Shown here in pieces: positions 2,460-64,000 of a stretch of DNA of 64,000 nucleotides (position 1 is its first letter; the number at the start of each line of letters is the position of its first letter). The translations under genes and the position numbers were made by a program. Location of the stretch: NCBI GenBank assembly GCA_002189035.1, contig NEEC01000013.1, positions 1,798,001 to 1,862,000 of the forward strand, given 5' to 3'. The notes beneath the pieces were generated by a model that saw only the letters and a program-made list of their open reading frames with translations, made no database searches and was not told the DNA's origin. Source of the DNA: Utricularia gibba. Taxonomy: Eukaryota > Streptophyta > Magnoliopsida > Lamiales > Lentibulariaceae.

Positions 2460-3302
2460 ATGGCGATGGGCACAGAGAGATCGAAACAGTTGCACAATTT
2501 CACGATGCCGTGTGATTTGAGGTGGGGAAATCAGCGATTTCTCCGGTGTATGAAGGTCGATCCTGATGGGGGGATGCCGCCGTTCCAGCGATTCACAGAG
2601 AATAATCTGGGATCCAGCGATCGTCAACGAGAGCAACGGCGGCGGACGACGAGGGATTGGGATGGGGAATTGATGCTTTCCGAGTTTGTGAATGGATCTG
2701 AAACTCCTGCAGTTACTCACAACTCAGAGGCGGAGGATGCGGTAGCAGCGGTGAGGGAGAAAGCGATGTTGGACCTCCAGACGGCGGCGGACAAGATGAA
2801 AGAAGCGTTTGCGACCCAAGCTCCAATTAAAACCTCCCGTCCGCCGCCTCCGCCGTCGGTGGACGCCGAAGCCCATCGCCCCTGGAATTTGAGAACCAGA
2901 GCAAGTGTATTCCACAAGCCGCCGGTCATCGCACAGGCCAGCCCATCCCTCGCGAAATCAGACGCGCCGCCCCAACCCAGATGCGGTCTTCTTCGACCGC
3001 CAGAGCTGACCCAAATCAACGACCGAAATTCTCAATTCCCCTCACGAAACATCAGATCGAAGAGGATTTCTTCTCAATGGCCGGTCGCCGTCCCCCCCGC
3101 CGACCCAAAAAGAGAACAAGAATCATTCAGAGATCGCTAGATGTAAGCCCCCACAAATCACCATTTTGAATCAACCCTTTGTTCAATCCTTCCCAAATTC
3201 ACAACTTTGATCTCATTTTCACATCTGCAGGATTTGTTCCCAGGGCTGTGGCTCACAGAAATCACAGCAGACAAATACAAGGTTTCAGTAGCGCCCCCTT
3301 GA
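2460..3302 (+). CDS. DUF1639 family protein (two exons, one apparent frame break)
   Basis: A plant-specific protein of unknown function. Exon 1 is 2460-3142 and exon 2 is 3231-3302, joined at a phase-0 GT-AG intron. The N-terminus has the family signature ERSKQLHNF followed by WGNQRFLRCMKV. Further motifs are RPWNLRTR near residue 145 and a C-terminal DUF1639 block, RRPKKRTRIIQRSLD plus DLFPGLWLTEITADKYKV, that spans the splice. I chose ATG 2460 (MAMGTERSK) because relatives start with the same motif; an in-frame ATG lies upstream at 2391. The N-terminal half and the KFSIPLTKHQIEEDFF/RPKKR half are in different frames. One base seems missing between about 2900 and 3000, possibly in the CCC at 2976-2978. 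Both halves are conserved, so a sequence error is likelier than decay. Confidence 0.85.
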
Positions 3303-5195
3303 GTCTCTCTGCATTCAAACACCAGAGAGACTTAGAAATCTAGGCGCATTTATTCTTTTTCTCTTTGTTTCCCAGATTTGTTAAGAGCAGAGCTGCTCCT
3401 TGTTCCCATTGGCAACCTGCAAAACTTGTGATTAATGTCTTCATTCATTCATCAACTTCTCTGTTCAAGTTCAAAACTCTGTCCTCTGCTATGCCTCTCA
3501 GTCTGAATCTTCTTTAAACTCCCTCCCCTTCTTCTGTAACAGCTGGTTCACTTTCTCTATAAGCGAATGGGGATTTGAGGAGTATTTTTCTAACAAACCA
3601 TATCTGTCTTCATGTCCTTATGATATTCATTAATTTTAATGTGGATGTTTTTTTTAAAAAAATATTTATTTTAAATTATTATTCATAAATTCGGACCAGT
3701 GGCGATGCGTTTGTTTACATGGCCCAGTATTTCCACCGTGTCACGTGGTCATCTTCACACGAATAGACGATGTTTTTCTCGTGGGGAAAAAAAGGAAGAA
3801 AGACCCAAATTCCGGGGGGTCCACCTAGTGTTACATTTTCTTTTTTTTTAATTCAAAAAACGAAAAATTACACGTGTTTTAAAATCCTAAAAAATCTTAA
3901 ATAGTTTTCATATTTATTTATAATGAACGATTATACATTTGTAATTATAGGGATTATTTCATATTTATATGTAAATAATTTTAAAACATACACAATTATT
4001 TCACATAACCATGATTTAGGATGGATTTGATGAATTTTGTTTTTTTTTTAAAAAAAATGGTGTTAATTCAGAGGTTTTGCCTAATTAATATCATTAATAA
4101 CTAGACTAGACTATACCTTTTATTCGTCCTGGGTGCGCCAAGGCCCCCTTTTTTCAATTCAATATTAGAAAAACTATTTTCAGAAAGAATTAAAGAAGCT
4201 AGAAAATGTACGAAATTTATTTTTGACACGTGGGTTCCGACATGGACACCGTTCTTGATATAGTAATATATTTATCCACGTGTTTTTCGAAAGCGAATAG
4301 CATATATTAATATATATAATCGTGAAAAAAGATTTACCTTCAATTGTTGGATTTGTTTAGCAAATAGTATATTTAGGATTATTTTTTATATAAATTAAAT
4401 TACTCAATATTACTTAAATAACACCATATATGAAAACAAAATCTTAATAAATCTTTTGTTTGCATGAAAATTAAATCTATTCACATTTAATTTTTTATTT
4501 ATGACAATTGAAATGGATTAAACAAATATTTTATGAATAGATTGAATTCGTTATTCAATTTAAAATAAAATTATATTGAATTCTTTTAATAATAAATTGA
4601 CTATCTTAATAATTTTTAATTAGGATACTTGACTCCATTCATTCCCATTATTTTTTGTTCTCATGTTTTGAATATTAGTTATAATTGATCCCTAATATTG
4701 AAAAATTAAATATATTTGATGTTTATTTTTTTTATAATTTGATAATATCAATCCCTATTCTCCGACCGACCATCACCTACGGTCGCCCACGCCGGTGGTG
4801 GGCGGCGGCATGCCTGCGACGGTCGGCGGCGCCGGCAGGGGTGTGCTGCCGGCGATGATCAATATTAAAATAATGTTTATGATTATCAATTATGACATTT
4901 AGTTAAAATAAGGAATATTCGTGCAATTTTACATTTTTAATTATATTTTGAAATATCTTTTAAAAAATAAAATTATTATTTAAACAAGGTAACGTTAACG
5001 GTAACCGAGTACCGAGTGAGGGGGCTGCGAGGTGGATTCTATGGGCAGATGTTGGAAAAGGTAGTTCTCCGTATGTACCTGTCGACTTGGTTCAGCAGCG
5101 AAGAATTAATTCGGCCGACAGCCAGATCCTCGATCGGAGCTCATGTCACGTGTAGAGATTCCCATCGAGGACTCCGCCGGGCAGGGCATCGCCCT
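3303..5195. other. Intergenic, AT-rich with a GC-rich island
   Basis: 3' flank of the DUF1639 gene, then about 1.5 kb of AT-rich DNA without coding signal. A sharply GC-rich block sits at about 4760-4858, described in the findings. Confidence 0.5.
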
Positions 5196-5196
5196 G

Positions 5197-5205
5197 TTTA
5201 TAAAC
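5197..5205 (+). promoter_or_regulatory. Probable TATA box
   Basis: TTTATAAAC about 210 bp upstream of the ATG at 5406. It precedes a leader that appears to contain a GT-AG intron (donor near 5271, acceptor near 5391). Confidence 0.45.
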
Positions 5206-5405
5206 GCAATCTCCGCTGAAGCAGCGCCTCGTCCATCGATTTCTGCTTCGATCGGCTTTTGGAGTTTCAGGTAAAACGCAAATCGTTGTTCCTTGCGGTT
5301 TCAATTTGCCGGAATAGTGCGGATCTGGAGGGTTTGAATTCATCGATTGGTGATGCTTGAGTTTGTTGGGGGAAAAATGGTGTGTTTGTAGTCGAATTGA
5401 GAAAA

Positions 5406-6009
5406 ATGGGGCATTATGCGGGGCCGGGCAATCGGAGTTTAGCTGCGGCGTCTTGCTGGTCGGATGAAGTTGTTTGCCCTAAGCCGAGGCGGCGACGGCT
5501 TGCTTCTCCTTCCTTCAATGATGTTGTTACTCTCAGGCCGATGAGATGGTTCACCAGGTAATCAATCACTTCTGCTTGTTTGAAATTTCAGAGAAAAGTG
5601 CATCTCAACTTCTGCTTGTTTGATGTTAAAAAGCAGTCATCACCAAGAGTGTTTTGGATCTGAAGCAGCTGAAAATGGATTGTCAGAGATAATTCTGTTG
5701 CAGGTTAGCAAGTTTTTGCATAAACAAAGGACGACAAGGCCATTTCTGAGTTCCACTGTTGTGTTCACTCTTAACAATAATCTGATATCTGATCAGGGAA
5801 GTGGTGGCGGTGCCGACACCGAGACTGATGAATCCGGCCAACACCTAATGGCATTCGGGTTATCCGGGTCACCGCCGGCGAGAGTTTCCAATCCACATAT
5901 CCAAGATCCCCGTTTCTTTGAGGTTAAATCTTGGAAACCTGCGGTCAGGATCGAGGGGTTCGATCCTCCTCCTCCTCCTCCCGGTAAAATCAGCAGCACT
6001 CTCCCATGA
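5406..6009 (+). CDS. Small conserved plant protein of unknown function (GSPPxRVxNPxxQDxRF motif)
   Basis: Exon 1 (5406-5557) encodes MGHYAGPGNRSLAAASCW, a CPKPRRRR stretch and LRPMRW. Exon 2 (about 5797-6009) encodes an acidic linker, then GSPPARVSNPHIQDPRF and a proline tract. I recall a family of small plant proteins that start MGHxxGPGNxSLAAA and end with this GSPP..NP.QD.RF motif; no biochemical role is known to me. The donor at 5558 leaves phase 2, while the conserved exon-2 frame starts in phase 0 at GGAAGT. Frame is restored if the G run after the acceptor CAG is one base longer. Taken literally, the splice gives a 67-residue protein lacking the motif. Confidence 0.55.
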
Positions 6010-7052
6010 CTTCTCCGGCTTAGAGAGGTATCCACCTGTATCATTGTCGACGTTTTTTATCCATTTTTTTGGGAAAATGTACATAATTCACTGCAATGAG
6101 AATGAAAATAGGTGCTTTTCTTCAGTTTGTAACGAGACTTCCTTGAAAAAGGGAGACCGTACAGTACATTGCTCCTCTTGTCCTTGTTCATACTCCATGG
6201 ATTGGGCCATAACTCTAATCCATTTTAGTTTCGATCCAGCCCGTTTTTCGTAATGGGCTTCCCATTCTTCTTACGTTCAAGCCCAATACATAATTTTTAA
6301 GTTTCTTATTCTTGAATATTTGAATTTTTCTTTTAAATCATAATAAATTAAATAATTTTCAAATATGACATCATAAGTATGAGAGTATGTTTGATAGTAT
6401 GATATAGAAAACTTGTATCCAATTTTATATATATACTGCTATTTGATTAACTAGTATATATGTGTCGGTCTTATATAATTATACCCTTTATATACTCATT
6501 TTTAAATATGTAATTAGCATACACAAATAGAGCAGACTAATTATATTTATATCATTCGTATACTCAGACTTCTATTATCAAATATCAAACATATATACAA
6601 TTGAGTATTCATATAGTTATATTATACTATACTTAAATATACTATCAAGAGACCTGTTAAAAATATCCCAATTGAATCATCATTAAATTGTTTTAGATTA
6701 TTAATCATTCATTAAGAAATTTGAATTCAAATCATTTGAATATACAAAATTATAAATAATTTAATCGATTCAATTATAATATGATATTTTTTTGAAAAGG
6801 ATAATATAAAAAAAGATATTCCTTTTTAAAAAAAATTAACAGTTTAATCAGGATTTGAATTGAAATTAAACTATTCACATCACAATGATTTTTTTTAATA
6901 TTTGAAAACAGTTATTCGACTATTTAAGGTAAGGAGATACGCCAACTGGATTCATCCAAGCCCGATCAAGTGGGGCGGATGCCACTATAAAAATGACTCC
7001 ACGCGCCCACCCACTTCAAATAATTTCCTCTTCTGTAGAAGAAAAAGCTGCA
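6010..7052. other. Intergenic, AT-rich
   Basis: No coding signal. The last 100 bp form the LBD promoter, with a TATA-like CTATAAAAA at about 6985-6993, some 60 bp before the ATG. Confidence 0.5.
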
Positions 7053-7810
7053 ATGAGTTGCAATGGTTGCAGAGTTCTTCGGAAAGCCTGTCCCCAAAGC
7101 TGCGCCTTACGGGATTCCCTGAAATGGATCCAATCCGATGAAGCCCAGGCCAACGCCACCAGGTTTCTTGCCAAGTTCTACGGCCGGAGCGGTCTCATCA
7201 ACCTCCTCGCCGGCGCCGGGACACGCGCCGACCGTCGCCGTACGTTTTATATCAAACCCTAACTTCTTCCGATTTCGCGTCGCTGATTATGGATTTTGAT
7301 GTTCTCAGAAATCTCTCAGTCGCTTCTGTACGAGGCTTGTGGCCGGATTATTAGCCCGATCTATGGATCTGTGGGACTGTTCGCCGACGGCAAATGGCAG
7401 CGGTGCCGTTCCGCCGTCGAATCGGTTCTCAACGGAACCCCCTGCTGAAAGTGATCACCGTGGAGGGAGAAACGGAGAAAGAGTTGGCGGTGTCCCCGAC
7501 CCAAGCCTGCGAAATCCGACACGTCTCCAAGGAGTCAATTGTCGATCGCCACATCCGGACTCGGAAGCGCGCAAGAAAGGACACGTCGATGAGCCAGAGT
7601 GAGCTACACCAGTTACTCTCCGTGGTGAATCTCCCAGTCCCCCAAGAGAAATTCACTCTTACTGGGTGGGATTGCAAGGAGATGAATAGATCAAAACCGT
7701 TTCCGGTGGAGACGACGCCGCCGGGCGTGGAGGTCAGCCCCCACTGCGGCGGTTCTATCGAACTGGAGTTGACGTTGGGCCCGAGTCATCTCCTTCTACA
7801 CTGTTCCTGA
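7053..7810 (+). CDS. Class II LOB-domain (LBD) transcription factor, one apparent frame break
   Basis: A plant-specific DNA-binding regulator of the class II LBD group (LBD37-42 type); members of that group are linked to nitrogen and anthocyanin control. Exon 1 is 7053-7239 and begins [17 protein letters not shown], the Cys block CX2CX6CX3C. It continues with [20 protein letters not shown] and GLINLL. Exon 2 starts at 7309 with [18 protein letters not shown] and a [15 protein letters not shown] block. The frame then breaks in the five-C run 7438-7442. One more C would continue into the conserved tail, with RTRKRARK and a final ELELTLGPS motif ending at 7810. As read literally the protein stops at the TGA directly after the run. 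The start is fixed by the conserved MSCNGC. Confidence 0.9.
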
Positions 7811-10800: not shown

Positions 10801-11625
10801 GAGACATTAGAAAATATAATATGCATCACATGATTTTTTTCCATAAAATATAAATAATTTTAAAATCATAAATAAAAATATAAATTTACTATTAAATATT
10901 AATTTTAAAATATAAAAATACGAACAAAATGTATGTTATCAATTACTAAATGAATTGGGTGTGTTTGGTCACCCTTTTGAACTGGTAAGCAAGGAACGGT
11001 AAGATTTGCATGGCATGGCCCCCATTTCCATGTGGTATTAGTTATATTTAGGATGCTGATATTTTCTTGTCGGAGTGCCGTACAGACACGGGCTGGTGGC
11101 CCGGACACGGTTTTGGACTCCGCACACCATTTTGGGAGGTGGTTTTGTGACCTCACCGGACACCCAATCATCTTCCTGTGATTACTTTACCCGAAATGGA
11201 AAAAATCCTTGCAAATTACTCCCCCCTTTTCTTTTAGTCAATTATGTCATAATTTGACCAAATTGCCCAACTTTAACTATGTGGTTTTCTATCATCCTAG
11301 TTCTCAAAGATTTATAAATATTTGGTATTTTAAAAATTTAGAAAACTCAAATTTTTCTTTTTTTTGTGAGAATATTTTGAAAAATTATTCTCGTGAATAT
11401 GAAGTCTTTTTTTCAAGAACGCAAAATCGTAAAAATTGGGTGTTCAAAGCGGATAATATATCACTCATTAATAAGTTGTATTATTGATTAAATTAAGATA
11501 AATCATTGGTGTTTTTTTTCTCAAGCAAAATTAGAAACACAATAAAGACTGAGAAAACTGATTGGGCTTTTTTCTTATGTTGTAGGGTTTGTGATGGGGG
11601 GTTGCAGTGATTGGGTTTTTATGAA
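7811..11625. other. Long AT-rich intergenic region
   Basis: The first about 300 bp are the LBD 3' flank. The rest has no convincing gene. About 9720-9960 contains imperfect inverted copies of an ACTTTTxxAAGTAAAAATA-type sequence, possibly a decayed AT-rich foldback element. Isolated short frames near 8644-9034 and 10905-11257 look random. Confidence 0.4.
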
Positions 11626-11699: not shown

Positions 11700-11836
11700 G
11701 TATACGATGCAGGCCGATTTTGAGAAGCCCAAGCCTACTTAACGGCATAAAGCCGAGCAAGTGTTGTTCAGATCTCTGCAGATCCTGTGTTTCCAAGCAT
11801 TGTGTCGTCGTCCCCAACGTCTGTTTCCGCATCATT

Positions 11837-12031: not shown

Positions 12032-12069
12032 AACACAACGACTAGGAGTTAGATTAGGGTGGGATCCGC

Positions 12070-12692
12070 CTACTCACGGCTGCGGGAGTTGGAAATGGCC
12101 TCATACTCCGCCGCAGCGATGATACTGAGATCATTGAGACGGCTGAAATCCCCCATCATGAACAGCCCATTCCCGTTGACGACATCGCCGTCTTTGTCCT
12201 CGGAAACCTTGTCACTGCGACACCCGGAGTCATGCGAAGATTCCCAGGATTCAGTTTCGAAGACAGAGGAAGGGGATTTCTGATTCATGTCGGAGCAGTT
12301 TTTAGCCCTCAATTTCTCCTCAATGTCAAGCTTCTTCGCCACGTAGGCCTCCGCCGCCTCCTCCGCGGTGGCGAATGTTCCCAGCCAGACACGCTTGCCT
12401 TTGCGCAGAGGATCCCTAATTTCCGCCGCGAATTTCCCCCACTTCCTGCGCCTCACCCCACGAAGCTCCGATTCCCCTCCTCACGCCAACGCAAATCCTT
12501 CAAATCCCTAAAATCACCCGATTCCCCCTTTTTGCGAGCAACTCTCGCCGGCGCCCGTCGCAGCACGATTTCGTGGACCTTCCTCTTCGAATTGGTCTCA
12601 GATTCGTCAGAAGATGAATCAGTGGCGTAGGGATCGGAATACGAAACTCTGATTCTCGTCGCGGAGTAGAATTTCAGCTTCAGATCGTCCAT
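12070..12692 (-). CDS. CRF-type AP2/ERF transcription factor, one apparent frame break
   Basis: A DNA-binding factor related to cytokinin response factors / Pti6-type ERFs. The N-terminus (ATG 12692, [10 protein letters not shown]) has a CRF-like block [18 protein letters not shown] followed by basic KRKVHEIVL. The AP2 domain follows: [43 protein letters not shown]. The C-terminal region is acidic and Ser-rich with WESSHDSG. The two parts are in different frames: FVG is followed by TGA where [10 protein letters not shown] is expected. One more G in the four-base run 12456-12459 (C on the plus strand) restores the domain exactly. No intron, as usual for this family. An upstream in-frame ATG at 12734 exists, but the MDDL start fits better. 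Confidence 0.88.
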
Positions 12693-15639: not shown

Positions 15640-18600
15640 CCCTCCGCCGCTACAAGCAACTTGTTTTTAGTAGCCAAGCCAGTACACCGAAGACTTGCAG
15701 TTTCTCAGACATCAGAAATCCGTTGCTTCCTCTAGGGTTTATGAGATTTGACCTGCGTCAAGGAATTTGCAGTTGGGAACAGGCAGCAACTTGCAAGACA
15801 ATCCGACCGAGTTAACAACGACGAAGATTCTTTCTTTCTTCTCCCACTCTCCGTTCCCACGTGAGGACAATTAATTTAAAAATGCAGTAAACGCTGTTCA
15901 ACTCCATAAACCTTACTACATACATTTTTCGCGTAGTCCGCCTTACTTAAATACTTTTCATTAAAGAGACATGACGCGGCGGCATCGGAACCTCCGGCGA
16001 CGGAGTTGAAATCGGGGAGCCGCGACAAGAAAAAATGTGCACTTTCCTCCGGTAGCCAAGTAAACGACGTCGCACCGGATCTGAACGATGCGCTCCGGCC
16101 CAAAACCCATGGCCCATGTATGCTTTACGGGCTAAATGGATAGCCCATTTGTAAAACCGGGTTACACGGCGAGGCCCAATAGCATTAGAACGTTGTGGGC
16201 CAGAGTATCCATTTTATTTTTTACCCGCAGCTGAGTTATATGCAGTGGCAGTAACATCACTGGGGCGTTTCCCTCGAAAGTGACAGCGGTAATTTTTTTC
16301 ACCGATGACGTGGCCTCTCCCCGGTGGCCCTCGCTTTCTGATGCTCACCCACCTTTTTTGTCCCAGGGAAATATATGCCCACGGTTCAGAATATTATATT
16401 AAAATTATTATTTTAAAATGATAGATATAATATATGATTTAAAAATATGTTCAATTTATTTAAATATCGTCAGTACATTAAATTATCTTTTTCCAAAACA
16501 AAATAATGTAATTAGTAATCAAATCAACCACCTCCCATAAATACTCCACATGGCCTGTGACACAAGATAAATAAAATAATTCCAAGGGCAGCAGAAGGTA
16601 TGAGCCTGGAGTTGTTTCCTGAACACTGTTGAGGATGTTGGCGAGGGCAATTTGGACATCAACAAAATCCCTTTTTTAAATAAGTTTAAGAACGCGTTTT
16701 TGCATTATCAAATTTATTAAATTTATTTTAATCCCCTAATAACTAATATTATTATAATAATCCATGTGATTAGTGTTCATTGAGATAACCAAACACGCCA
16801 CGTGGTTAAGCCCGGGGGTTAAGTGGAAGGACGACGTCGTATCAACAAACCCCACAAACATCATAAATGATGGTAAATATGTTCAGCCATCAATCTATTC
16901 TACGCGTATCCCACCCCTCACCACACACCGTTTTATTTATTAAAATGCGAAAACCACGCCCACAAGAAAATGAAATGAAAACTCCCTATTTTTCTTCCAT
17001 TTCTCTTTGAGAAACATAAGTAAAATTATTATTACAGTAATATATGAGCCACCTATGGAAGTTTCTAGAATTAATTCTATTTCGATAGAAGTGTTTATAT
17101 CTTTCAATCATATATTAAATTATATTTTACGAGAACTAGTTTTTGAGAATTATTTAAAATTTATGAAAAACATGACATAGTAACTTATCTATAAGAATTA
17201 ATTATAATATTGAAATTATAATTATACTCATTTTTATAGATAGTTTATAATAATAATTATTATAACTTATTTAGTTAATTTTTAGTTAAAATTTTAATAT
17301 AAATATGTTTAAATTAAAAGTATTACATAAATTATAATTCAAAAAATCATATAATATTATATAATTAATAAATATGTCATTTGATTATTAAAATCAATTC
17401 TCATTTTTTACACTTCAAACATTAATTTATTCTTTAATAATCATTTTAAAAAATACTTTCAAACATATTGATGACACACATTTTTCCTAAATTTCAAAAT
17501 ACAAAATGGTTATATTTTATTATGGTTTAAGTTAGATAAATGTGATTTTTCATGCTTTAGTGGTGTTTATGTTAATCCTATGTGATTATGTTGAAAAGTG
17601 GACTAAATCCTTTGATTTAGTACACAACTCATGTTATTGATGTCTCAGTAAGTTCAGCAGGGAGATATGCCGAAAATCAGACTTGCAAGCGTGTAAAACA
17701 AGCGAAAAAAGGCGCAAAATCCGGAGAAGGAAAAAGAGCATTGTTCTGCTGCCACCGCAGTCTGCAAGTTTAGGCCAGGAGCAGTACTGACAGTCAGGAA
17801 CAGTACTGGCAGACAGAAATAGTGCAATGGAGTGAAGCAAAAGAAAAGGAAATTAATTCGAAAAAGAAAGAGGAGAGCGAAAAGTGGAAGCGAATAGCAT
17901 GGGGGACGCAAAAGGGGGGTCTTCTTCGCCAACACAAAAAACACCTACCAGAAGGGAGAAGGAGGGCCTTCACTACCAAGAGTAGCACCGGAGCCTAGTC
18001 AAGCGCTACTGTTCCGGGCTGTGAACAATAACTAACAGGCGGAAGGACAATTTTTATTTACTTTCTTGTTTACTGAACTTATTTACCACTGTTAATTCGA
18101 GCTTAGACTAAGACTTACTGTTATCCGAAATTATGCATGTACTAAAACACTTAGCAAGCACAAGTTCTTTGTGATCGACCCTGATTCCACTATACAAGTT
18201 TTTTAAATTTTTATTTTGTGTAGATTATGGATTATAAATTTATTTGATACAGATTTTCTATTTTTATTTGCATTGATATTAGGAAAATTCCATTTATCAC
18301 ATATATCAATTTTCATTTTATCAAATTCAATTTTACTAAAATCAATTTTGAAGAGATTTTTCGCTTAACGTAGTTATGATTTTCCAAACGTATGCAATAT
18401 AGCGAAAATTTTACAAAATTATTCAAGAAAAAACTTAATTGTGAATGAGATTTACGTTATCAGAAAGCCTTCAAAAGCTTATAATTTTATGAGTTTTTGA
18501 ATTGGACCTTTTGCTCTCATTACATAAATTTTAGTATTATTAATAAATACGATATGAATAATTTTGTTATCGTATTAAAAATGCAGAAATAATAATTAAC

Positions 18601-19106: not shown

Positions 19107-19759
19107 ATGGGGAACTGTCAGGGCGTGGACGCTGCGGCGCTTGTGATACATCACCCAATGGGAAGCAGCAGAGGGTGTACTGGCCCATCTCCGCCGCAGA
19201 GGTGATGAGGATGAACCCCGGCCACTATGTTTCCCTCGTAATCCCGATTGTCCACACCGGAGATCATGGCCCAGGTGATGATACTAGGCGGCGCGTGAAT
19301 TTCACGCGCGTTAAGCTTCTCCGGCCCGCTGAAACGCTCCACCTCGGACAGGATTACCGTCTCGTTTCTACCCAAGGTGCTCTCTCTTTCTGTGTCTGTT
19401 TTCATTCTCCTTCCTTGTTCTTTTCCTTGACTGTTGGTGAAGGAATTTTGTGGGGTTTTGTTGCAGAGGTTTTGAGAGTCATCGCAGCTAAAAAGACGGC
19501 GAATTTGGAGAAGTCGAGGAAGAAGAATCAGGAAGATCTGCGTAAACTAGAAACCCAGATGAAAAACACTAGTGTACAGTATACCAATCGGATTTCTTTA
19601 AAATGCTCTACTGCGTTCACTCACCGGATTCAACATTTTTTTGTTCCATAGGTTTCAAGGTCTGTGAGAAATCAGCCGAGATGCTGTTTAGGTTCGTCGG
19701 GAAGAAGACACAAATCGTGGCGCCCATCTTTACAGAGCATCTCTGAGCTTGAATCCTGA
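19107..19759 (+). CDS. PADRE (DUF4228) domain protein, one apparent frame break
   Basis: A small plant protein of the PADRE family, often stress- or pathogen-responsive, with no known reaction. The start MGNCQGVDAAALVIHHPMG (ATG 19107) is the family N-terminus and a potential N-myristoylation site. Next come VYWPISAAEVMRMNPGHYVS, VKLLRPAETLHLGQDYRLV, a basic EKSRKKN stretch and the family tail RPSLQSISE. Exons are 19107-19375/6, 19467-19573 and 19652-19759. The frame breaks in the GGG at 19160-19162. As written, ATG 19107 stops soon after SSRGCTG; one more G gives MGKQQRVYWP and links all downstream blocks. A longer alternative open frame (from 19031) lacks the conserved start. Confidence 0.87.
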
Positions 19760-20299: not shown

Positions 20300-21072
20300 A
20301 TGAAAGAGACGCTCGAGCGGAATAAGGAGGTTTCCGCCGTCGGCGTTGAGAAAGCAAAGGTTTTCGCCATTGTAGGTTACCAAAGGACGGAGCGCTTGGC
20401 GGCGTCAACTGGATCAAAGTCAAGTGCAACGAAATCAAGCTATTTCGGGAGAAGACGTAAGGTTTTAGAGACAGATTTTCATTGTTTCGATGCACATTCG
20501 TTCTTGATTGCTCCAGATAACAGCAATAATCGTGTGATGAGGTTTCGGAATTTGACTTTTATTCTTACGTTCGTTTGCATTTGTTTGATACCAGTGAGAT
20601 CTGGTAAATCGTTAATTCATCTTCAATTCAACCATTTGATTTGCCTTACTGTTTGCAAATCCGGTATGTTCAGACATCCTTTCTGAACAGCCATCCAACA
20701 TTCCAGCCTCTCCGGTAGCTCTCTCCCCTCATCATCTCTCCACATCAATCAGCTTCACTCCGGAGTTGATCGGGAAACCTGACTTAAGTTTAGGGTCCCT
20801 CCAAAACCGGTTAGTGACAGTATTCCAGTGCTGGAATTACCTTCTACACCGGAAGATGGAAGCCCCGAAGCTTGGAATTCAAGTAAGTGACACGGTTCCC
20901 GCATGTTACGGTTGGAGCTCGAGACGAGGTCCCTGATGGATTCTTGCTTGAAGGCACACACTTTGAACTGAACGGCGGTGGTGTGATTCCGGCCACGTAA
21001 GTTATCTACCCTTGTCTCAGAGGAGGAAGCGTGGCACAGGGTTTTCATATCTGTTCCTTAATTTTGTATTAA
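20300..21072 (+). CDS. Unrecognised plant gene, three exons, one apparent frame break
   Basis: I do not recognise this protein. Exon 1 (20300-20456) encodes a basic N-terminus, MKETLERNKE..., ending SSYFGRRR before GTAAGG. Exon 2 (20674-20996) joins in phase and reads HILSEQPSN, FTPELIGKPDLSLGSLQNRL, VFQCWNYLLHRKMEAPKLG and IQVSDTVP. It then continues in the next frame as HVTVGARDEVPDGF, LLEGTHFELNGGGV. Dropping one C of the CCC at 20898-20900 joins them. A possible exon 3 is 21021-21072. GGCCCA motifs at about 20060-20175 suit a plus-strand promoter. A 97-codon minus-strand frame overlaps exon 2, so strand is not certain. Confidence 0.45.
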
Positions 21073-40379: not shown

Positions 40380-40908
40380 CTTCTGTTCACCCATTCTGAT
40401 TACTTCTCTTGACAACTGAAAGCTTGTGGATGATCTAAGAATAAGAATGAAAGAGATAGAGAAGGGTTTTTGGGGTTCAGGAAAGCAGCAAAGCAGCGAC
40501 AGCCGCAGATTTCGTTGACATACTTAATAAGCTTTTTTAAGCAAAAGTCCACGACAAGATCGATTTTGGGTTTCGACACGTCTCTGGTGCACTTGCAAAA
40601 AGACAAGGTTGGGCTAAAAGTCAACGCCATTGAACATCCCTTGCTTCTGGGTGAGACAAATGCGCATGCGGAATGGTACACAATAATGACGTTTAACATT
40701 TAAAATTAGAATTTAATTCAATTTAAAATGTAATAAATCTATTTTTTTTTTTGCCCATTTGCAAATGGAGCAAAACTGCTAATGTTCGAAAATTACACAT
40801 TCGTCCCAAGGTTTCACTAAATTACAAAATTGTACTAAAGCAGGGGTCTTCCAATAAATTCAATGTATATGCTAGATGTGAACTGGAGTCCGTCTTTCTT
40901 CAGCTTCA
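40380..40908. other. Intergenic
   Basis: Upstream region of the peptide gene (minus strand) and 3' flank of the zinc-finger gene. A minus-strand short frame here matches nothing I recognise. Confidence 0.35.
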
Positions 40909-42125
40909 TCAGGAGCACTGAGTAGGAAGATTGAGATCAAGCCAACTGGGCCTCGCTCCCGGACTCCGATTGCCACTGTTCCGGTGCCCGCGAGGAAATG
41001 AGACCTCTTGTGGCCGCCAAGCGCCTGTCCATTCCTGAAAACTCTGTCACAGAAAGGGCAAGCATGGCCCTTGCTCTTCTTTGCCTTGCTTTTCGCTTCA
41101 TATAGTGTCTTCCCGCCTGGTTTTGCATTGGTTGTGAGCTGAGTCGAGATATGGTGACTGCTCTTGCTGCTGTGTTCGCAGTACTCATTGCTTCGCTGGT
41201 GGCACGGTCTGTGCCCTCCTAGCGCCTGGTATGACTTGAAAACTTTCTTGCAGTTGAAGCATTCATACTGGCGTCTCTTCTGAGAACCTTCCCTGCTTCG
41301 TGTCAAGTGGCTGTATCCAGAACTCTTGCGCTGGGAAGTTATTGATAAAGTGTAGTTGGCTTTGCCACATTCATCCAAGAAGTACCCTGAATCAGAATCA
41401 TTAGTCTGAGCTGTTTCTGATTCCCATTCCGTTAATGTGCTGTTCTTAACTACAGCATTCACCTTTCTGCTTTCTAGGATGACTGAATTGTTATCAGAAG
41501 ACTCAACTGAGTTCAAAACACCCCTGAAGGTCGAATCCCTCGACAACATCATTAAACACAAAGCTACCTCCTCTTGCTCATCACCATCAATCTCAGAAAC
41601 AGACGACGAGTAGCCATTGTTAGCCAAGGAGAAGGAGAGACATTTGCTGCTTTTAAAGGATCTTGTTCTGATGATCCGTTTTGAAACCTCCTCCGTCTCC
41701 GAATGACTATCCATTTCTAGCTTCTGAGTATCACTGTTCCATGACTGATCGCCCTTGATCCCTCTATACCGATCCGAGTGGCAAGCCATATGCCCACACA
41801 AGGCTTTTAGAGACTGGAAATTTTTACCACATTGCCTGCATACTCTCTCTTGTTGCAATGTGAAGCCTGCGGCCACAGCCCTCCATGATTTTCTGGGATG
41901 CTCTCTGAGTACATAACTGGAATGGGCATTCACGGATTCTTCGGTTTTCGGCTCATTCAGCAGCAAAGATCCAATCTTTTTCCAGTGTACCTCAGCTTTT
42001 TCATCAGAATCAGCTGAATTTACCACAATGTGAGACCTCACATGCTCTCCCAGAGACTTTCGACAGGGATGCCTTTTGTCACACATCTTGCAGACAAACT
42101 TCAACTCTTGACTCTCATCTTCCAT
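40909..42125 (-). CDS. C2H2 zinc-finger protein, ZAT type, EAR motif put out of frame by one base
   Basis: Nuclear DNA-binding protein with four plant C2H2 fingers: CKMCDKRHPCRKSLGEHVRSH-type (partial match), CRQCGKNFQSLKALCGH, CFNCKKVFKSYQALGGH and CPFCDRVFRNGQALGGH; the last two carry QALGGH. A Glu-rich region and ALCLMMLSRD lie between fingers 2 and 3. I chose ATG 42125 (MEDESQELKF) over the upstream in-frame ATG at 42170, whose extension is hydrophobic and not family-like. The frame as written runs to 40872 with an atypical tail. The adjacent frame reads RPSWLDLNLPTQCS and stops at 40909. LDLNLP is the EAR repressor motif expected at the end of ZAT proteins. One more G in the run at 40958-40960 restores it. 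Confidence 0.9.
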
Positions 42126-43388
42126 AATATTCCACAATTGAATCAACAAAACAGCAAATGCACAACACAATAACCAAGATCAAGTAGCTAAAACTGAAGT
42201 CCTACCGCAGCAACCGAACTATCATTAGCTCATCCCAAAATCAGAGAAAAAACGAACCCCAGATCGAAAAAAATTCAGCAAAAAGCACTGAAACAAGCTC
42301 AAAATCAAAAATCGGTATACCTCAATACTCTCGATCAGTAAGCGACGGAAGCGGGGAGAGTTCTCGGGAAGTGGAAACCAAATAAATAACGACACCCATC
42401 ACAAAAACGTAGAGCAATCTTGAATCCCGAATCAATGTAATCCTTCTCAACAAAGAAAAAAGGTGTACGAATCATAAATGTGGCTTCGTCCCAGTATTAA
42501 AGTTCCAAGATTTCGAAGAAATTAATGCCAGAACACAAAGAAAAACGAAACCCATCTTGCGCCTCAATTCGACAAATCACGATTAAGGAAAACAAATCAA
42601 GCACAACCCTCAAAGCAATCAACTCTTCTTCTTCCCATCACCACCGTGCTGCGACACTTAGGCACACAGAGTGTGTAAGTAGGAAAGAAATTTCATGCAT
42701 GGGAGCGCAAAGTCTGAAGAGAGAGAAGCAGAAACTGAGGGCCGCATACGTGTACTCCTGAGCCGAGACATCGGTGCACCGGAATCGGACGGTCAAGATC
42801 TGCAGCTTCACCAACTGTAAAATATGACCACATAACTAAAAATAAAAAAAAAATTATACCTTCTTAATTGCAACAACAAATTCCTCACAATCATCCAACG
42901 TTTGTAATTGCCCTATTTACTCATTTCACATGTGACATTAATGTCATTTAGACAAAAAAAAATATGATCATTTTTTTCACACAGTGTTCATTTTTTAATA
43001 TTATCATTTTAAATTTATGTAATTAATTGTCATTCTTACATTTCATTATGAATAATAATATAGTATATTGTTTGGAGTATACAACATTAACCTTCGTCGG
43101 GTGTCAAATTATTGCATATTAAATAATGAAATTTAACCATGAAATTGATGAAATATTATATTCAAGACTATGTTTGTTTCTGTTTATCAAAAACTTCTAT
43201 GTTTAATAAAATAAAAATTGTGTATATTCAATTTATTAAAAATAAAAAAACGTTTTTAAATTTTTATTCTTTTTTAAAATAAAATTCGCTTATATTTGAT
43301 AATAAAATTATTTATTTAAACAATAATTATATAGTATTTTCCTAGCATTTTGATATTTGATACGCCACGTGTTTGGTTTTTGTAGCAG
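42126..43388. other. Intergenic
   Basis: 42126-42780 is the leader/promoter of the zinc-finger gene, probably with one intron. 42800-43370 is AT-rich without coding signal. Confidence 0.4.
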
Positions 43389-46180
<2,792 letters not shown>

Positions 46181-48811: not shown

Positions 48812-49713
48812 ATGGCTGCTGCTGCTGCTGCTGCTGCACTTAGTTTCTTGCTCTTTCTGGGCATGTTTAGCTATTCTGGTAAGCACAAAATCTTGTAGAA
48901 TACAGTATTACTCCTTTGCTCCAGTATTGTGATCACTTATTTTTCTGTTTTTTATTTCCTCTCGTGTCTCAAAATCTGCAGATGCAGTTTACTGTGTATG
49001 TAATTCTGGATTGAGTGACGCCATTCTCCAGACAAACATAGATTATGCTTGTAGCCATGCTGATTGCTCGGCAATTTTACAAACTGGGCCTGTTTTAATC
49101 CAAATACTGTCAGAGATCACTGCAATTATGCTGTCAATAGCTTTTACCAGAGATCGGGACAAGTTGCTGGAAGCTGTGGTTTCTCTGGAACTGCTACTGT
49201 GACTCAAACTCCTCCCAGTAAGTAACTTCGACAGAATATGTTCTTTTTACTTCTCCCCGAGTTTTGAGTTTCTGTTCTTTTTGATGTGCAGCTGCTTCTC
49301 CTGGATGTGTGTATCCATCTAGTCCCAGGTTTGAACTACCTTTCTTTACATAAATTTTTGTGGGTGTCTCTGTGTTGCATTAGACCCGAGTTTTATCTTT
49401 GATGTAAAAATATCTTTGATTTCTCCTCAAAAATGTGTCCAGCACTGGTGCAGTATCCGGTCCACCGGCTGCAACCACCCCAACAGGAACCACCCCACCA
49501 GGTGTAACCGGTGGGGCAGGACCATTAAGTCCGCCAGGAGCAACACTAAGCCCACCGGGCTTAGCCGGCACCGGCGGCTCATTTCCAGGTATATCTCCAC
49601 CGGGTTTTACGGGGTCAACATCATCCAGCGCAGGCTCTTCTGGCAGAATCCATGTCCTAATGCTTGCAGTGACTTCATGCTTTGCCCACTCCCTGTATAG
49701 TGTTATGAATTAG
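48812..49713 (+). CDS. X8-domain, GPI-anchored callose-binding (PDCB-like) protein, one apparent frame break
   Basis: Cell-surface protein that binds callose, often at plasmodesmata. Exons are 48812-48878, 48982-49217, 49292-49328 and 49443-49713. The signal peptide is MAAAAAAALSFLLFLGMF, with its Ala run encoded by repeated GCT. The X8 domain begins YCVCNSGLSDAILQTNIDYA, CSHADCSAILQTGP. It continues in the next frame as FNPNTVRDHCNYAVNSFYQ and GQVAGSCGFSGTATV. One base (probably a T, giving CCTTGTTTT) is missing near 49091, which also removes the conserved Cys of GPCFNPN. Exon 4 encodes a Pro/Gly/Thr/Ser-rich linker and a hydrophobic GPI tail ending AVTSCFAHSLYSVMN. Confidence 0.88.
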
Positions 49714-52170: not shown

Positions 52171-52316
52171 GACGACGTCCGACTAAGATTGGCTGACGGA
52201 CGACAAACGGGTACTATGGTGACCAAAAAAACCCAAAGCGAGACCTGAGCCTCCTGCTCCTCCGCAGGGTAGACAACGACGTCTGTCGATTACCAAGAAG
52301 ACAAAAAACATGACAC

Positions 52317-52339
52317 GCTAGAAGGAGGGCTTGAACCTC

Positions 52340-52372
<33 letters not shown>

Positions 52373-52389
52373 AACTGAGCTATTCCAGC
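52317..52389 (-). tRNA. tRNA-Asn (GTT anticodon)
   Basis: 73-nt cloverleaf without intron. The 7-bp acceptor stem is GCTGGAA/TTCTAGC, the D arm is TAGCTCAGTTGG, the anticodon loop CTGTTAA has anticodon GTT, and the T arm is GGAGGTTCAAGCCCTCC. All stems pair. Confidence 0.96.
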
Positions 52390-53108
52390 ATGTGATACTT
52401 ATTTTATTCATTTAATATTTATTACTTACATATTTCTTAGCAAAACAATGACGCCTGCATTGAGAGCTGGGAAACGCTGTCGTGTTGTGGGGATTGGACA
52501 TGAGCCTGTGCTTTTTTGACTCAATTCTAAAAATCCCAGGGATTCATGTGGTTGTAGGATGTAAAAGCTGCTGTCTTTTTCGTTCCTCTGGAGAATTAGC
52601 TTAATTTAATCCTTTTCCTTGTATTTGAATATGATTCATGGCCAGTATCCATGAAGTCGTAGTTCTTTCTATACGCCTATTTATGATTACCATGTTTTAT
52701 TCCACACTAAACCTTCCGTTTTCATCTGTATGCTTATGGAGATTTTCTCTGTGTTTAGCTTGCATTTACTTGCAATTCAATGGGAAAAAGTAGGAAGAAG
52801 TCATGAAAAAGGAGGTCATATCTGATGACTGGCTTGAGATATTCAAACAACTTGAATGTGTCTGAACAGTTGAATACATTGGAAATGGTGGAAGGCAAGC
52901 CACAATTACAAAACTACAGAGATTTGTAGTTATACTTGTGCATCTGGCCGCAAAATTTGCACAAGTTGCATATATGCCGATTTTTTATGTTGTGAATTGG
53001 CAGACATTGCAGGAAAAAAAAAGGGGGGGAAAGGCTACAAAAACTATACCTCCCATCTGCGTGCATTCATGGGAACTTCATTCTTGATAGCTGCACAGAA
53101 AATGATAG
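52390..53108. other. Intergenic
   Basis: No gene seen. The right end is 3' flank of the SOFL gene. Confidence 0.4.
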
Positions 53109-57540: not shown

Positions 57541-57825
57541 TCTTCATTCCTTTAGCTGGTATTAGCCTGTAAGTATGAGTCAAGCGCGATGTATTGTATA
57601 CTACTTCAACCATTCTTTTAGGAAACCTGAAAACTCTGTAGCTAACACCAGTCATCTGAACATAGTCATCCTGATGGTGTTTGATTATGGTAGTTCTCTG
57701 TAAGAAAGCATTCTTATTTTTGTCGAATCATAGACTGAACAGCGATATGATTCAAACCAGCACACCCCACTACAGATAGCAAGGTCACACTACAGCCATA
57801 GACGCATATGCTGTTCTACAGATGC

Positions 57826-58062
57826 TCATTTCTTGCCTGAGGACTTGCCAGATGCAGCCTGCGACAAAAAGGGGGCCACCATTCAGACATCTTATCTCCC
57901 ATGTGCAACACAGAAAAGCAGTAGAATGCCAGGTACCTTCTTCTTCGAATCTCGTGGTTTGAGCTCGGTCTTGTTCTTGGGAGCTGGCCCTTTGGAGGCT
58001 ACCTTCTTCCCAGGAGCAGCTGTTTGAGGTGCAACTGGCCTCTCAGCCTTCAAAGAAGCCAT
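57826..58062 (-). CDS. Small Lys/Ala/Pro-rich protein (52 residues)
   Basis: Two exons (58062-57937 and 57858-57826) join at a short 78-bp intron in phase 0. The product starts MASLKAERPVAPQTAAPGKK and ends AASGKSSGKK. It is very basic and low-complexity, like a histone H1 tail, with no recognisable domain. I know of similar short Lys-rich plant proteins but no function. Support comes from the clean splice sites, the frame that continues to a stop, and a leader upstream. Convergent with the ICME-like gene. Confidence 0.5.
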
Positions 58063-59194
58063 ACTCCTGTTTTATAGCGAAGCTAAGCTCTTCCTTATTC
58101 TGGATTTCCTTCAGTTTGCAGTGAAGCATACTTATAGATGAGTGTGATTCCAAAGGGACAAGTTTCGCAACTGCTGTCCATTAAAATGGAACAAACAACC
58201 CTCAATGAATCAGATCCTGATGGAAGAAATTCTCTTCAGCATAAGAACCTCGAATTCCTGGTACACATTAATCTAAAATCAATATCCAAATCCATCATTC
58301 GAATTTATACCTAATACTTTTATCCATATTGTGATAAATTATCGATGACACGAAATGTCATGACTCATGATTCTCATTTTATGTTCTGGACATCTAATTC
58401 ATACGACTTTATATTTTATTTCTTTTTTTAAAAAAATATTATATAAGATTAGAAATATTATACACATGAGTTATAAAATATCTATGTAATCCTCTTATTC
58501 ATATTTTTAAAAAAAAATTATTATATCGTATAATATAAGATGTGTTTAATTAAAAAATAATAATTCAAACATACCATTAATTAAATTATTAGTAAAAAAG
58601 GCAACGCTGTGTCACCTCAAGCGACCTCCAGTCAGCGAAGCTGTTGGGGGAAGTCAAGATTTTCGCTGATCCGTTGACTGCTTTTTCGACAATAGCCCTC
58701 TATTTTCTTCTTAGTTGTTCATCCTTTTCCTTTAAAAAAAATAGAAAAAATTATGATTTTTAATTAAAAATAATTATAATAAAATATAATGATGATAATA
58801 ATTATAGCCCAATCTACCAACCATCTCATCTCACGGCTTTCAAAGAAGAGACAAAAGTTGAGGGCCGCAGTGAAGTAGACTGGACTTGTGCGATCAGATG
58901 GGTAGCTTCAGAGCGGCGGAAATGGCGTGGCCACGTGTCCAAGCTAATAGCGTCGCCGTCGCAGGGTAAAATTCAACATAAAAGAGGTTCCTTCATTCAA
59001 TTTGTCTTCAGAGTTTGCTCTCGCTTTTCCCCACCGGCGCCACTGTGTCTTCCTGCGCGTGTCATCTCTTCCCCTGTCCTCCATTCACTACAAAGTGCCA
59101 AAATTTTCGTCCTCTTAGGTGCAGCTGCCCACCTTCTCCCTTCTTCGTCTAAATCAAATAACCCCACTTCGGTTTTCGGCTCTTCGACCGGAAT
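58063..59194. other. Intergenic
   Basis: 58280-58610 and 58730-58810 are AT-rich. The part from 58900 is the promoter and leader of the MIZ1-like gene, including a CACGTG-type CCACGTGTCC near 58931. Confidence 0.4.
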
Positions 59195-59982
59195 ATGAAG
59201 TCCATTTTGGCCAGAGATCCGCATGAGCGGTTCTCGCTTTCACGGAGGTTTTTTGGGAGGAAGTTTGTTCTGGATGAGGAGGAGGAAGAGATGGGAGGAT
59301 TTTGGGGGTTGGGATGGAGAAGTGTAACTCCGTGGGGCTGAGGCATTCGTTGTCGGGGCGTTCGCCGCCGTTGCCGGGGGCGAAGAAGAAGTCTTCTTAC
59401 TCCTCGATTTTCGGCATTTCGAAGCTCCGATCGGCTCTGTGTACGGCGAAAATCCATTTCTCTCCAGGTCAGGGGAGTAAGCTCGTGGGCACTCTGTTCG
59501 GGCACCGCCGCGGCCGTGTCCAGCTCGCGTTTCAGGAATGTTTCAAAACAGCGCCGTGTTTCCTTGTCGAGCTTGCCACTCCGACGAGTGTGCTCGTGAA
59601 GGAAATGGCTTCCGGGACGGTGAGAATCGCGTTGGAGTGCGAGAAGAAAAAGAGTGACAAAAAGGGTGTGAAGCTTCTTAAGGAACCGATCTGGAGGGCG
59701 TATTGCAACGGGAAGCGATGCGGTGACGCGATAAGTAGGAAGTGCAGCCCGGAGGATTGGAAGGTTTTGAGCGCGCTGGGGCCGATTTCAATGGGCGCCG
59801 GCGTTCTCCCCGCAGCGCAGGCCGGCGCAGGGGAGGCGGAGGAAGAAGGGGAGATGATGTACATGAAGGCCAAGTTCGAGAGAGTCGTCGGGAGCAAAGA
59901 TTCCGAAGCCTTTTACATGATGAATCCCGACGGCAGCAACAACGGAGGCCCTGAACTTAGCATCTACTTGCTCAGAGTTTGA
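59195..59982 (+). CDS. MIZU-KUSSEI1-like (DUF617) protein, one apparent frame break
   Basis: Plant-specific family; MIZ1 of Arabidopsis is needed for root hydrotropism and sits at the ER surface. ATG 59195 gives MKSILARDPHERFSLSRRFF and an acidic stretch DEEEEEMGGFWG. After a frame change at the five-G run 59304-59308, the rest reads SKLVGTLFGHRRGRVQLAFQ, FLVELATPTSVLVKEMASG, VRIALECEKKK, EPIWRAYCNGKRCGDAI, WKVLSALGPISMGAGVLP, EGEMMYMKAKFERVVGSKDS, EAFYMMNPDG and GGPELSIYLLRV, the invariant tail. The domain half is open on its own from 59302. One more G joins the two halves. Intronless, as usual. Confidence 0.9.
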
Positions 59983-60776
59983 AATGCTCCGCCGTTTTCA
60001 TCCCTGCGTTTCGTTTTCATCCTTTTGTCGAGCCCGAGTTAGAGGACGACGAGCCCAATATGAATATTTATCTTTTTCACCTTTTGCGTAGATTTTTTTC
60101 CTTTTTTTTTTTACCGCACACCTATCCACAGTGATCTTCTTTCTAAATTACTGGCAGTGCTGGAAAAGGACATTTTACTATTATAGAATATGATTATTCT
60201 TTTTGTTAAAAAAATTTGTAACTAGTGTGAAAATATTTGAATAAAATAATAATATTTAATAAAAAATATTAAAAAATAGCTGTTCCCTTCATACGCTAAT
60301 AATTAGTTACTGTTTTGTGGATGGGAATGTGATAAAATAATTTTAATTTATTTGGGTTTAATTTTTTTTAAGTAACATTTAATTATTAGATTAAAAATAA
60401 AATTAATTGATTTTAATTAAATTAATAGAAATATGTGATTTTAAATAAATCTATGTATATGATGTTAAAAAATAATTCCAATTTATTTAAATAGATCAAA
60501 TAAATATATTACAATTTATAGTACTGTGTTTTTAAATTAAAAAATACCTCATTAATTAACATAAATCCATATTGTGTAATTATTATGTATATTTGCCTTA
60601 ATTTTGATATTTGAAAAATTACTGTTTTATCCATGATAATTTCACTCGAAATATCGCCACCCTATTCACACGTGTCTAATGTGCGTGAGTGGTTACGAAA
60701 CAGAAGCATCGATCCTAAGCAACGAAAACATGGTTATTTCAAAAGAGGTAGCCATTGTGGGTGGCTTCATGTTCTT
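59983..60776. other. Intergenic, AT-rich
   Basis: 3' flanks of two convergent genes and AT-rich DNA from 60180 to 60640. No coding signal. Confidence 0.45.
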
Positions 60777-61233
60777 CTACTTGTTTAGCTCGGAGGAGAA
60801 GGAGATGACGGAGGAAAATCTCTTCGACCCCGGCAACTCCGGCACCTGGTTCCCGGCGTTGTCGTAATACACCGCACCGGAGAAACGCGGCGGCTCGCAT
60901 TTCTCCCCCAGCAGAATGGACTTCTGCCACAAGGCTGTGTCCTCCTCCCGCCTCCTATCCTCATCATCTGTCGTCACCCACCGCACATTCACAGGAGTTT
61001 AACGTGCTTGTAAAGAGAAAACGGAAAAGAGGGAGGTCACTAATTCATTCACCTTTGGTGCGCGTTGGAGTGGCCTTTGGTGCAGTGACGTAGGCTCTGA
61101 TTGCATTTCCCCTGAGCTTCACGCACAGAAGCACGGCGAGTGAAGTCAAAACGCCCAAAATGTAGAGACAGACGGCCAGAATGATCAGGAGGTAGAGGCG
61201 TATTGTCATGGGGCTGTTCATCTTCAGATCCAT
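60777..61233 (-). CDS. Small single-span membrane protein, conserved in plants
   Basis: Two exons (61233-61053 and 60967-60777) give 123 residues. The N-terminal span is TIRLYLLIILAVCLYILGVL and TSLAVLLCVKL. After the splice the soluble tail reads EDTALWQKSILLGEKCEPPR, FSGAVYYDNAGNQVPELP, ending SVISFSSELNK. I recall a family of short plant membrane proteins with the LWQK.IL.GEKC.PP.FSG.I.YD..G motif, of unknown role. The start is the first ATG of MDLKMNSP. A weaker acceptor further upstream would break the frame. Confidence 0.78.
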
Positions 61234-61906
61234 GCCCCCCAAGTGTTCGACGACTCGCCCCAGAGGTGGTATGTATCTGTGGCAACAACAGGGGATGGAT
61301 GAGGAGGTGCGTGCATTTATTAGTTCATCTTCAACCTCAAGTACAAGCAATCACATTAATTACTCACCGTACTTAGCCCACCATCTGAAGATAATCATAT
61401 ATTAATGTGCATTATGAAATCCCCAGTTTTCAACTTGTGGGCATTTGGGGATTGCCAAGTTGTGGCCTTTCGCAAGCCAGCCGGGTTCTGCAAGGGAGCA
61501 AGAAAGCCGGCTTTTTGGGTAATCTCATGTCCAAGCTCTGATTTCCTCCACATTCCTTAGGTTCATGTTTCATAGCAGCAAAAGAATAAGGAGATTAGTA
61601 CAGTTAGGGGGCGTGGGTGTACGGGGGCTTGTCTGTCTGAGTAATAGGAATGTTTGTTTGTAATAATAGTTGACATTTGGGTATCCGTTGCACAAGTCAA
61701 CTGGTGCAAATGAGATGTGGTGGTGATAATCAACACTCTGCTCATCCATACCGTTGGTGTCATGGGTAATATGGATGCAAAAAATAAGTTTTATTATAAA
61801 TAATAGGTTTAAATTAATTATAGAAATATTAATTTATATTTTTAAAATGCATTATTTAAGTAAATGTTTTTACAACAAAACATGCCAAAAAGTAGAAAAT
61901 CGTACT
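61234..61906. other. Intergenic
   Basis: Promoter of the membrane-protein gene. Minus frames at 61563-61763 look random. Confidence 0.35.
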
Positions 61907-61986
61907 GTTGAGAGTGGGATTCGAACCCACGCCCTTTCGGACCAGAACCTTAATCTGGCGCCTTAGACCAACTCGGCCATCTCAAC
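61907..61986 (-). tRNA. tRNA-Leu (AAG anticodon)
   Basis: 80-nt type II tRNA without intron. The acceptor stem is GTTGAGA/TCTCAAC, the D arm is TGGCCGAGTTGGTCTAAGGC, the anticodon stem CCAGA/TCTGG has loop TTAAGGT (anticodon AAG), there is a variable arm, and the T arm is GTGGGTTCGAATCCCAC. Confidence 0.95.
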
Positions 61987-63557
61987 TGTTGCGTGATGAT
62001 TTCGACAAAAATAAATAAATTTAATTAAACTATCTGTGCGCCAAAATTTCAGGCTGGAGGCTGGCCCATGGATTAATTGGTTTATAAGGTCCAAGAGAAT
62101 TCCACCCCCCATAAATCTGTTGAAAAGGATGGTTGAGAGTGGAACTTGGCACCAAGTTATAGTGGGCCCCCACCCGCTAAGTGCTAACAGGGTGGAAGTG
62201 ATAACTCAGCAGAATGAGAATATGCAAAGGGCATTATCTCTCCATTTGTGCTTCGTTCGTTGGATTGCACCTGAAATCTCTTCATCCAAACCTATGCTTT
62301 TCTTTCACTTCTCCCTCGAATCATGCGCATACTTTTAGCTTTTTTTATTGTAAAATTAAATTGCTTCGACCATCTGATTCAAGGCAGGAGTTGCCCACCC
62401 CTAAGAACATAAGACAACATTGTATCTTATGCCCCCCTCCCAATCATTCATTATCATTCATTCTGAATAAATATCACGTTTTATATTGTTCGTTTTGAAT
62501 ATTCAATTTTCACAATTTTATAATTTTTATATTTAAATCAAATCTTCACCCTTATCTATGATGCACGTGATATATTGTCACAATCAACGCTTCTCTTGTA
62601 TAATAATGTTCAGTGTAAATAACTAATTATCATGATTTTATATTTTTTCTTTTAAAGAAAATGAGTTATATAAAATTAAAAAAGTTTATCTATTTAAACA
62701 ATTCTCTTTCTTTTTTTGTGACCAATTTAGTATTAGAGCTAAACTTGAACAAGTGCCAATGGTGGGATGATAAGTGTCTAAAAATAATAGAATGTAAAGG
62801 TAGAGGCCATATAATGATATTTCAGATGAGGGAATAAATATATTTAAATAGATGAATTCTTCTAATCTTGTATAATATATTTTTTTCGAAAGAAAAGAAT
62901 ATAAAATATAAGTCTAAGTGTAGGTTTTGATAAATATCGATGTCGTTCGGATAGGACCTTTCACTTGCTGATTAGTATGGTTTATCAGCCAAAGCTTAGT
63001 GTTTTATTTAGTTCTATTTTTCTATAAAAAAAACATCGTAAAAGAAAAATGTATTTAAAAGGGGACACGGGGAGACCGGCGTGTCGGGGGAGGGATGTGT
63101 CCATTAGGTGGGAATTTATTTCATTATTTATTTGGAGGGAAATAATTGTAATTATGTTTTCAATAATTTTGTTAATGGGAATGCGATGAGATTCCCTACC
63201 CGCACCATCTCTACTATAGACATTCTACTTGCAGTTTGGACCCGGGAGCTGTGACTCGGTCGGATACGGGTCGGATGTGACAACCGTTTTCGCTGTGGGA
63301 GCAACGGAGACGACAGACACCTCACGTTGGTATGTTCACGGGTTGGACTGAATGCCATCTTCCCCTCTTCTGCTTCTGCTCCCTAGATTTACTGGTTTCT
63401 AGGGGTTCTTTGTTTGCTTGTTTTTTTTTTTTTTTCCGGGCGGGCTCGCCGCTGGATTTTGGCATGCAGGGGCCTGGGATTCTCTGTTTTTACTTGCTTT
63501 TTGCTGTTTCTTGTTCTTCAGACTGAAGCGATGCCGAAGGACGAAACTTGAGTTCCG
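61987..63557. other. Intergenic and leader of the receptor gene
   Basis: 62340-63060 is AT-rich. About 63330-63557 is the probable leader. It contains a T run (63421-63435) and a short upstream ORF at 63531-63551. Confidence 0.4.
63531..63551 (+). promoter_or_regulatory. Upstream ORF (six codons) before the receptor start
   Basis: ATGCCGAAGGACGAAACTTGA ends six bases before the main ATG at 63558. Whether it is on the mRNA depends on the true transcription start. Confidence 0.4.
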
Positions 63558-64000
63558 ATGTCCCGGGGTTTGCTGCTCTTCCTGTTTCTTTTCTGTTTTC
63601 GCTCTTCTCTGTCTGGAGCAGCTCCCTTCAGTAAGTGGCGATTTTCGGTTGATTTGGGGATTTTGTTGTTTTGTTGGCCGGTATGCATTTTTCTTTACTG
63701 GGGTTTGTTTCTTTTTTTTGCAGATTATAGTATTCACATCGATTGCGGTGGCCACGTCGACTCCACCGATGCATTCCACACTACCTGGATTTCCGACCGA
63801 TTCTACTCCGGCGGCGTTGCCTCCATTGTTTCCGAGCCTCTCCGATTCCAGCACCAGCAAGAGAAAACGCTCCGGTATTTTCCCATTTCATCCGGTAAGA
63901 AGAATTGCTACAGCATTCCTACGCCTGCTGCCGGGGTCGATTCTTTCTTCGGACATTCGTCGTCTACGACAATTACAACGGCAAGTCGCACACGCCGTCG
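63558..64000 (+). CDS. Malectin-like receptor protein, N-terminal part (RLP4-like), one apparent frame break, cut by window end
   Basis: Secretory receptor-like protein. Exon 1 (63558-63630) encodes a signal peptide MSRGLLLFLFLFCFRSS. Exon 2 (from 63724) begins the malectin-like domain: YSIHIDCGGHVDSTDAFHTT, TWISDRFYSGGVASIVSEPL, FQHQQEKTLRYFPISSGKKN and CYSIPTP. From the GGGG at 63933-63936 the conserved text continues in the next frame as RFFLRTFVVYDNYNGKSHTP. One more G restores continuity. The text resembles Arabidopsis RLP4 (malectin-like plus LRR). LRR and membrane parts would lie beyond the window, so whether it has a kinase cannot be told. Confidence 0.85.
   Translation, partial: MSRGLLLFLFLFCFRSSLSGAAPFSKWRFSVDLGILLFCWPVCIFLYWGLFLFFADYSIHIDCGGHVDSTDAFHTTWISDRFYSGGVASIVSEPLRFQHQQEKTLRYFPISSGKKNCYSIPTPAAGVDSFFGHSSSTTITTASRTRR

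Follow-up and report, generated by a model that had tools for sequence, protein, structure and literature searches.

Frame breaks in conserved genes of a Utricularia gibba contig are very probably single-base consensus deletions at short G/C runs

Why does a single stretch of plant DNA hold so many otherwise conserved genes in which the reading frame changes partway through, and does the damage lie in the plant or in the file? The stretch considered here (the window, 64,000 nucleotides, C375:1798001-1862000) belongs to an assembly of 100.09 Mb in 516 contigs, with an N50 near 3.4 Mb provided that no larger contig went unseen. The published genome of U. gibba was assembled by HGAP, with Quiver polishing as its last step, from 88x PacBio data and comprises 581 contigs with a contig N50 of 3.4 Mb (PMC5793159). 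The two match in size and N50, and they differ in contig count (516 vs 581). We infer the sequencing method, and the assembly analysed is very probably this HGAP/Quiver PacBio genome of U. gibba. As an observation on the assembly itself, the sizes of contigs C1, C2, C409, C505 and C507 are exact multiples of 2,500 (8500000, 6192500, 2492500, 3452500 and 642500), which is odd for natural contig ends.

An earlier note on this DNA had listed eleven broken genes. Each of them was tested by Pfam, by same-genome relatives and by a purpose-written frameshift-aware protein-to-DNA alignment; a break was regarded as confirmed when an uninterrupted same-genome relative, or a Pfam domain, crosses the point at which the window copy changes frame. 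Nine of the eleven breaks are upheld by this analysis (DUF1639, LBD, CRF, PADRE, ZAT, beta-glucosidase, X8, MIZ1-like and malectin receptor), and every one of these genes is a single base short, with the frame break lying between conserved blocks (Table 1).

Table 1. Genes named as broken, and other features observed, in the window (positions are those of the window).
Feature	Position	Strand	Observation
DUF1639 gene	2460..3278	+	one base short at ~2970 (CCCC 2970-2973); normal intron at ~3143-3225; Pfam DUF1639
GSPP-motif gene	5406..6009	+	no break needed
LBD (class II LOB) gene	7053..7810	+	one base short at CCCCC 7438-7442; LOB domain; duplicate C142:1558424-1559225 open across the point
CRF (AP2/ERF) gene	12070..12692	-	lacks one base between RSF and RGVR (~12459-12464), where no long run lies; AP2 domain
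Repeat	17465-18320		at least about 40 genome-wide copies at 80-93% identity; possibly part of a mobile element
PADRE gene	19107..19741	+	one base short at CCCAA 19154-19158 (break range 19154-19159); PADRE domain
20.3-kb gene	20301..20890	+	claimed break only
ZAT-like C2H2 gene	40875..42128	-	one base short at GGG ~40986-40988; zinc-finger domains
Beta-glucosidase exon (GH1)	44605..44850	-	one base short at GGG ~44684-44686 (break ~44681-44686); Glyco_hydro_1
X8-domain exon	48980..49220	+	one base short at GGGCC 49086-49090 (break range 49086-49092); X8 domain
tRNA-Asn(GTT)	52315-52390	-	
MIZ1-like (DUF617) gene	59195..59982	+	one base short within 59278-59341, a span holding GGGGG 59304-59308; DUF617
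tRNA-Leu(AAG)	61906-61986	-	
Malectin-like receptor gene	63556..64000, runs off window	+	one base short at GGGG 63933-63936; Malectin_like

The relatives define the lesions closely. For DUF1639, the paralogue L002 covers the whole gene and reveals a sole frame change, which precedes the intron. Paralogues are uninterrupted across the break of CRF (C255:1573355 and C451:3020904) and of the beta-glucosidase (C3:4032705, C412:1211150 and C414:2614020), and those of the MIZ1-like gene (C451:1033768 and C2:5098700) are uninterrupted over the N-terminal part; in all three genes, the two parts once joined give the expected Pfam domains. The remaining five have duplicates on contig C142, all of them open: beside that of LBD, these are the duplicates of PADRE (C142:1590453, 80% identical), X8 (C142:1631941, 74/82 identical), ZAT (C142:1622858, uninterrupted through LDLNLPAPEEAEE) and the malectin receptor (C142:1673930, with GGGGG where the window has GGGG). 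ZAT additionally changes frame at about 40917, this time in the opposite direction (+1 or -2).

That the breaks merely reflect a wrong choice of splice sites or frames, with no break present at all, is an explanation that holds for the GSPP gene: exon 1 reads in frame into the GSPP block with any of five AG acceptors, which place the start of the second exon at 5709, 5730, 5739, 5751 or 5802, and a Pfam search of this gene returned no match. It is refuted for the nine confirmed genes. In LBD, PADRE, X8, the malectin receptor and ZAT, the one-base gap against the duplicate sits inside an exon and leaves no space for an intron, and as a general account a mistaken splice choice has next to no probability. 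For the 20.3-kb gene, neither a Pfam match nor a same-genome paralogue spanning the claimed break was found. Two long single-exon reading frames, checked from about fourteen genes claimed to be intact, are both open (kelch, 444 aa; PPR, 544 aa).

The five duplicates on C142 form one block at 1.55-1.68 Mb (C142:1558424-1674214), in the same gene order as in the window, and each is open where its window counterpart changes frame. Because these copies are intact, duplicate loss after polyploidy is a serious rival: the genes would be real pseudogenes, the window copies having been lost by frameshift after whole-genome duplication, in a plant that is a fractionated polyploid. Several observations nonetheless make it very improbable. 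The GRAS gene L036 on C142 is itself broken, as is its relative L035 on C375, hence the C142 side of the duplication has itself not escaped breakage. The lesions are, moreover, essentially of one type, a single base lost at a G/C run, where genes decaying freely would be expected to show mixed lesions, nonsense codons among them along with indels of both signs and several sizes.

Selection on the two sides of the breaks also argues against decay. Ka/Ks values before and after the break, which are averages over both duplicates and could thus miss the very recent death of a single gene, are 0.025 and 0.033 for the HSP70 gene L044 (0.028 in the intact control), 0.12 and 0.09 for the GRAS gene L034, 0.125 and 0.148 for X8, 0.04 and 0.15 for PADRE, 0.24 and 0.09 for the malectin receptor, and 0.13 and 0.28 for LBD. 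In most genes tested, selection after the break is about as strong as before it, and the relaxation that marks a pseudogene is not seen. It is very unlikely that many genes died equally recently, each through the loss of one base at a G/C run. One HSP70 case speaks for true decay. The near-identical HSP70 copies C304:2235549-2237462 and C241:16598-18511 have one break in common and a Ka/Ks of 0.57 after it, the value obtained for C304:2235823-2237462; they may represent a truly decaying gene, and not every break need therefore be an error. The exception suggests that the Ka/Ks test can tell dead from intact genes. This pair was also considered as a second test of redundancy between contigs and set aside, since the differences between the two are mostly substitutions and point to a true copy or an allele.

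The same fault recurs across the genome. Intronless GRAS genes offer a fair genome-wide test: about 25 copies are matched unbroken, and well over a dozen in pieces. When 30 GRAS loci were aligned to each other, about a dozen events proved robust; each was compatible with the lack of a single base, and no nonsense codon was among them. Considering GRAS and HSP70 frame changes together, from coordinates alone, 18 of 21 are one base short, and one of the other three (L034) consists of two losses close together. The CCT chaperonin family, used as a control of essential genes, contains at most one candidate break, in genes where breaks are difficult to spot, the exons being small and numerous; the break rate is accordingly not uniform. 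We estimate it at one in every 4-5 kb or so of GC-rich coding sequence.

Position relative to G/C runs was assessed with break positions taken from protein alignment alone, against random positions within the same genes as expectation. Among 16 breaks, which include GRAS sites at one conserved position and are hence not fully independent, 15 have a G/C run of at least 3 no more than 5 nt away (4.0 expected) and 8 have one of at least 4 at that distance (1.0 expected), while A/T runs are depleted (1 vs 5.1 expected). In six further stretches of 29-30 bases, their positions set in advance from match coordinates, a G/C run of at least 4 occurs in five and one of at least 5 in four, compared with 13% and 2.6% of 30-mers in intact GRAS genes. 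The pattern lies far beyond chance. As a statistical statement, the claim that almost every break falls in a G or C run is right, but some of the runs, those in PADRE, X8 and CRF, are just 2-3 bases long. The identity of the missing base was usually ambiguous by protein score. Within the window, broken genes have a GC content of 53% vs 47% in the intact stretches compared, and G/C runs are also more numerous in them; a run-length histogram of the window alone was uninformative.

Contig redundancy provides a direct comparison of two consensus sequences. When 20 kb of the window was used to look for a redundant contig, nothing but the repeat in Table 1 matched. Elsewhere, part of C412 recurs in contig C316 (38 kb). 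In the roughly 3.6 kb compared, up to a diverged stretch, C316 lacks a single G or C at three places, and the two contigs differ by one substitution. Natural variation is expected to consist mostly of substitutions. One of the losses, a missing C, cuts a GRAS gene, so that an open reading frame of 615 aa in C412 is reduced to 412 aa in C316. It is the one case in which the longer run was found in an independent consensus of the same locus, and an allele or a recent copy is another possible reading of C316.

The comparison likewise bears on the idea that the bases are truly absent and that programmed ribosomal frameshifting, or slippage in transcription, at short G/C runs still allows many genes to be read, the DELLA-like GRAS genes at one conserved codon pair included. 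Selection kept after the break would agree with it, as would the finding that the same conserved PGGPP codons are the break point in several GRAS paralogues. The run lengths differ between these paralogues, though, and close GRAS paralogues are in frame at the homologous place. Breaks that recur at PGGPP are what a conserved run would give if the consensus under-called it repeatedly. With runs that are short and vary from gene to gene, no common slippery signal seen, and the same gene whole in C412 yet cut in C316, we give recoding hardly any credence.

Collectively, the one-base-short bias, the G/C-run bias, the selection preserved in most genes tested, the genome-wide recurrence and the gene found both intact and broken in two contigs support homopolymer-length error in the assembly, which the earlier note had proposed as the simplest reading. 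Judged from the sequence, we are highly confident that the frame breaks in the window represent single-base deletions left behind in the consensus of an assembly probably built from PacBio reads alone, and very probably the one produced by HGAP/Quiver for U. gibba. In this consensus, short G or C runs would lack one base; genes that are GC-rich, have long exons and abound in such runs would then be cut in two in the file, the plant DNA being most likely intact, and the reads would be expected to show the extra bases. Lesions that are single-base and mostly deletions, as in the nine window genes and in the GRAS and HSP70 set, are those of PacBio consensus homopolymer errors.

A fault of this kind would make healthy genes look truncated or dead. 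If the same rate applied genome-wide, a large share of GC-rich genes in the assembly would be cut by false frameshifts, and any gene loss, truncation or decay of duplicates inferred from that assembly consequently needs read support. The published truncation of DCL3 is a case to consider. Four loci with paired RNase III domains are present in the assembly, and a Dicer dimerisation match lies near three of them. Near the fourth, a DCL-like locus with its two RNase III domains at C213:2761967-2762970, no such match occurs, in keeping with the truncated UgDCL3 described in U. gibba from RACE (PMC8333044). That the published truncation is the same consensus artefact is not supported, the arrangement at C213 being in agreement with the RACE result.

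Regarding known systems, there exists an analogy to Streptomyces albus SM254, whose Quiver-polished PacBio assembly contained 205 indels, almost all of them in homopolymers of G or C, before short reads were brought in (PMC4832174). Common to both are single-base indels concentrated at G or C runs, left after Quiver, that create false frameshifts in genes; the U. gibba case differs in its much higher rate, its shorter runs and its plant genome. The Kastor example (PMC12007338) similarly involves indels that cut open reading frames and mimic pseudogenes, but it comes from nanopore data and concerns mostly A/T runs, as opposed to the G/C runs of U. gibba. With post-polyploidy pseudogenes the window shares the broken copy beside an intact duplicate; it departs from them in the absence of relaxed selection in most genes tested, in the uniform lesion type and in the G/C-run context. 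Taken against these systems, the breaks are almost certainly consensus errors of an already known kind, and not a true feature of the plant.
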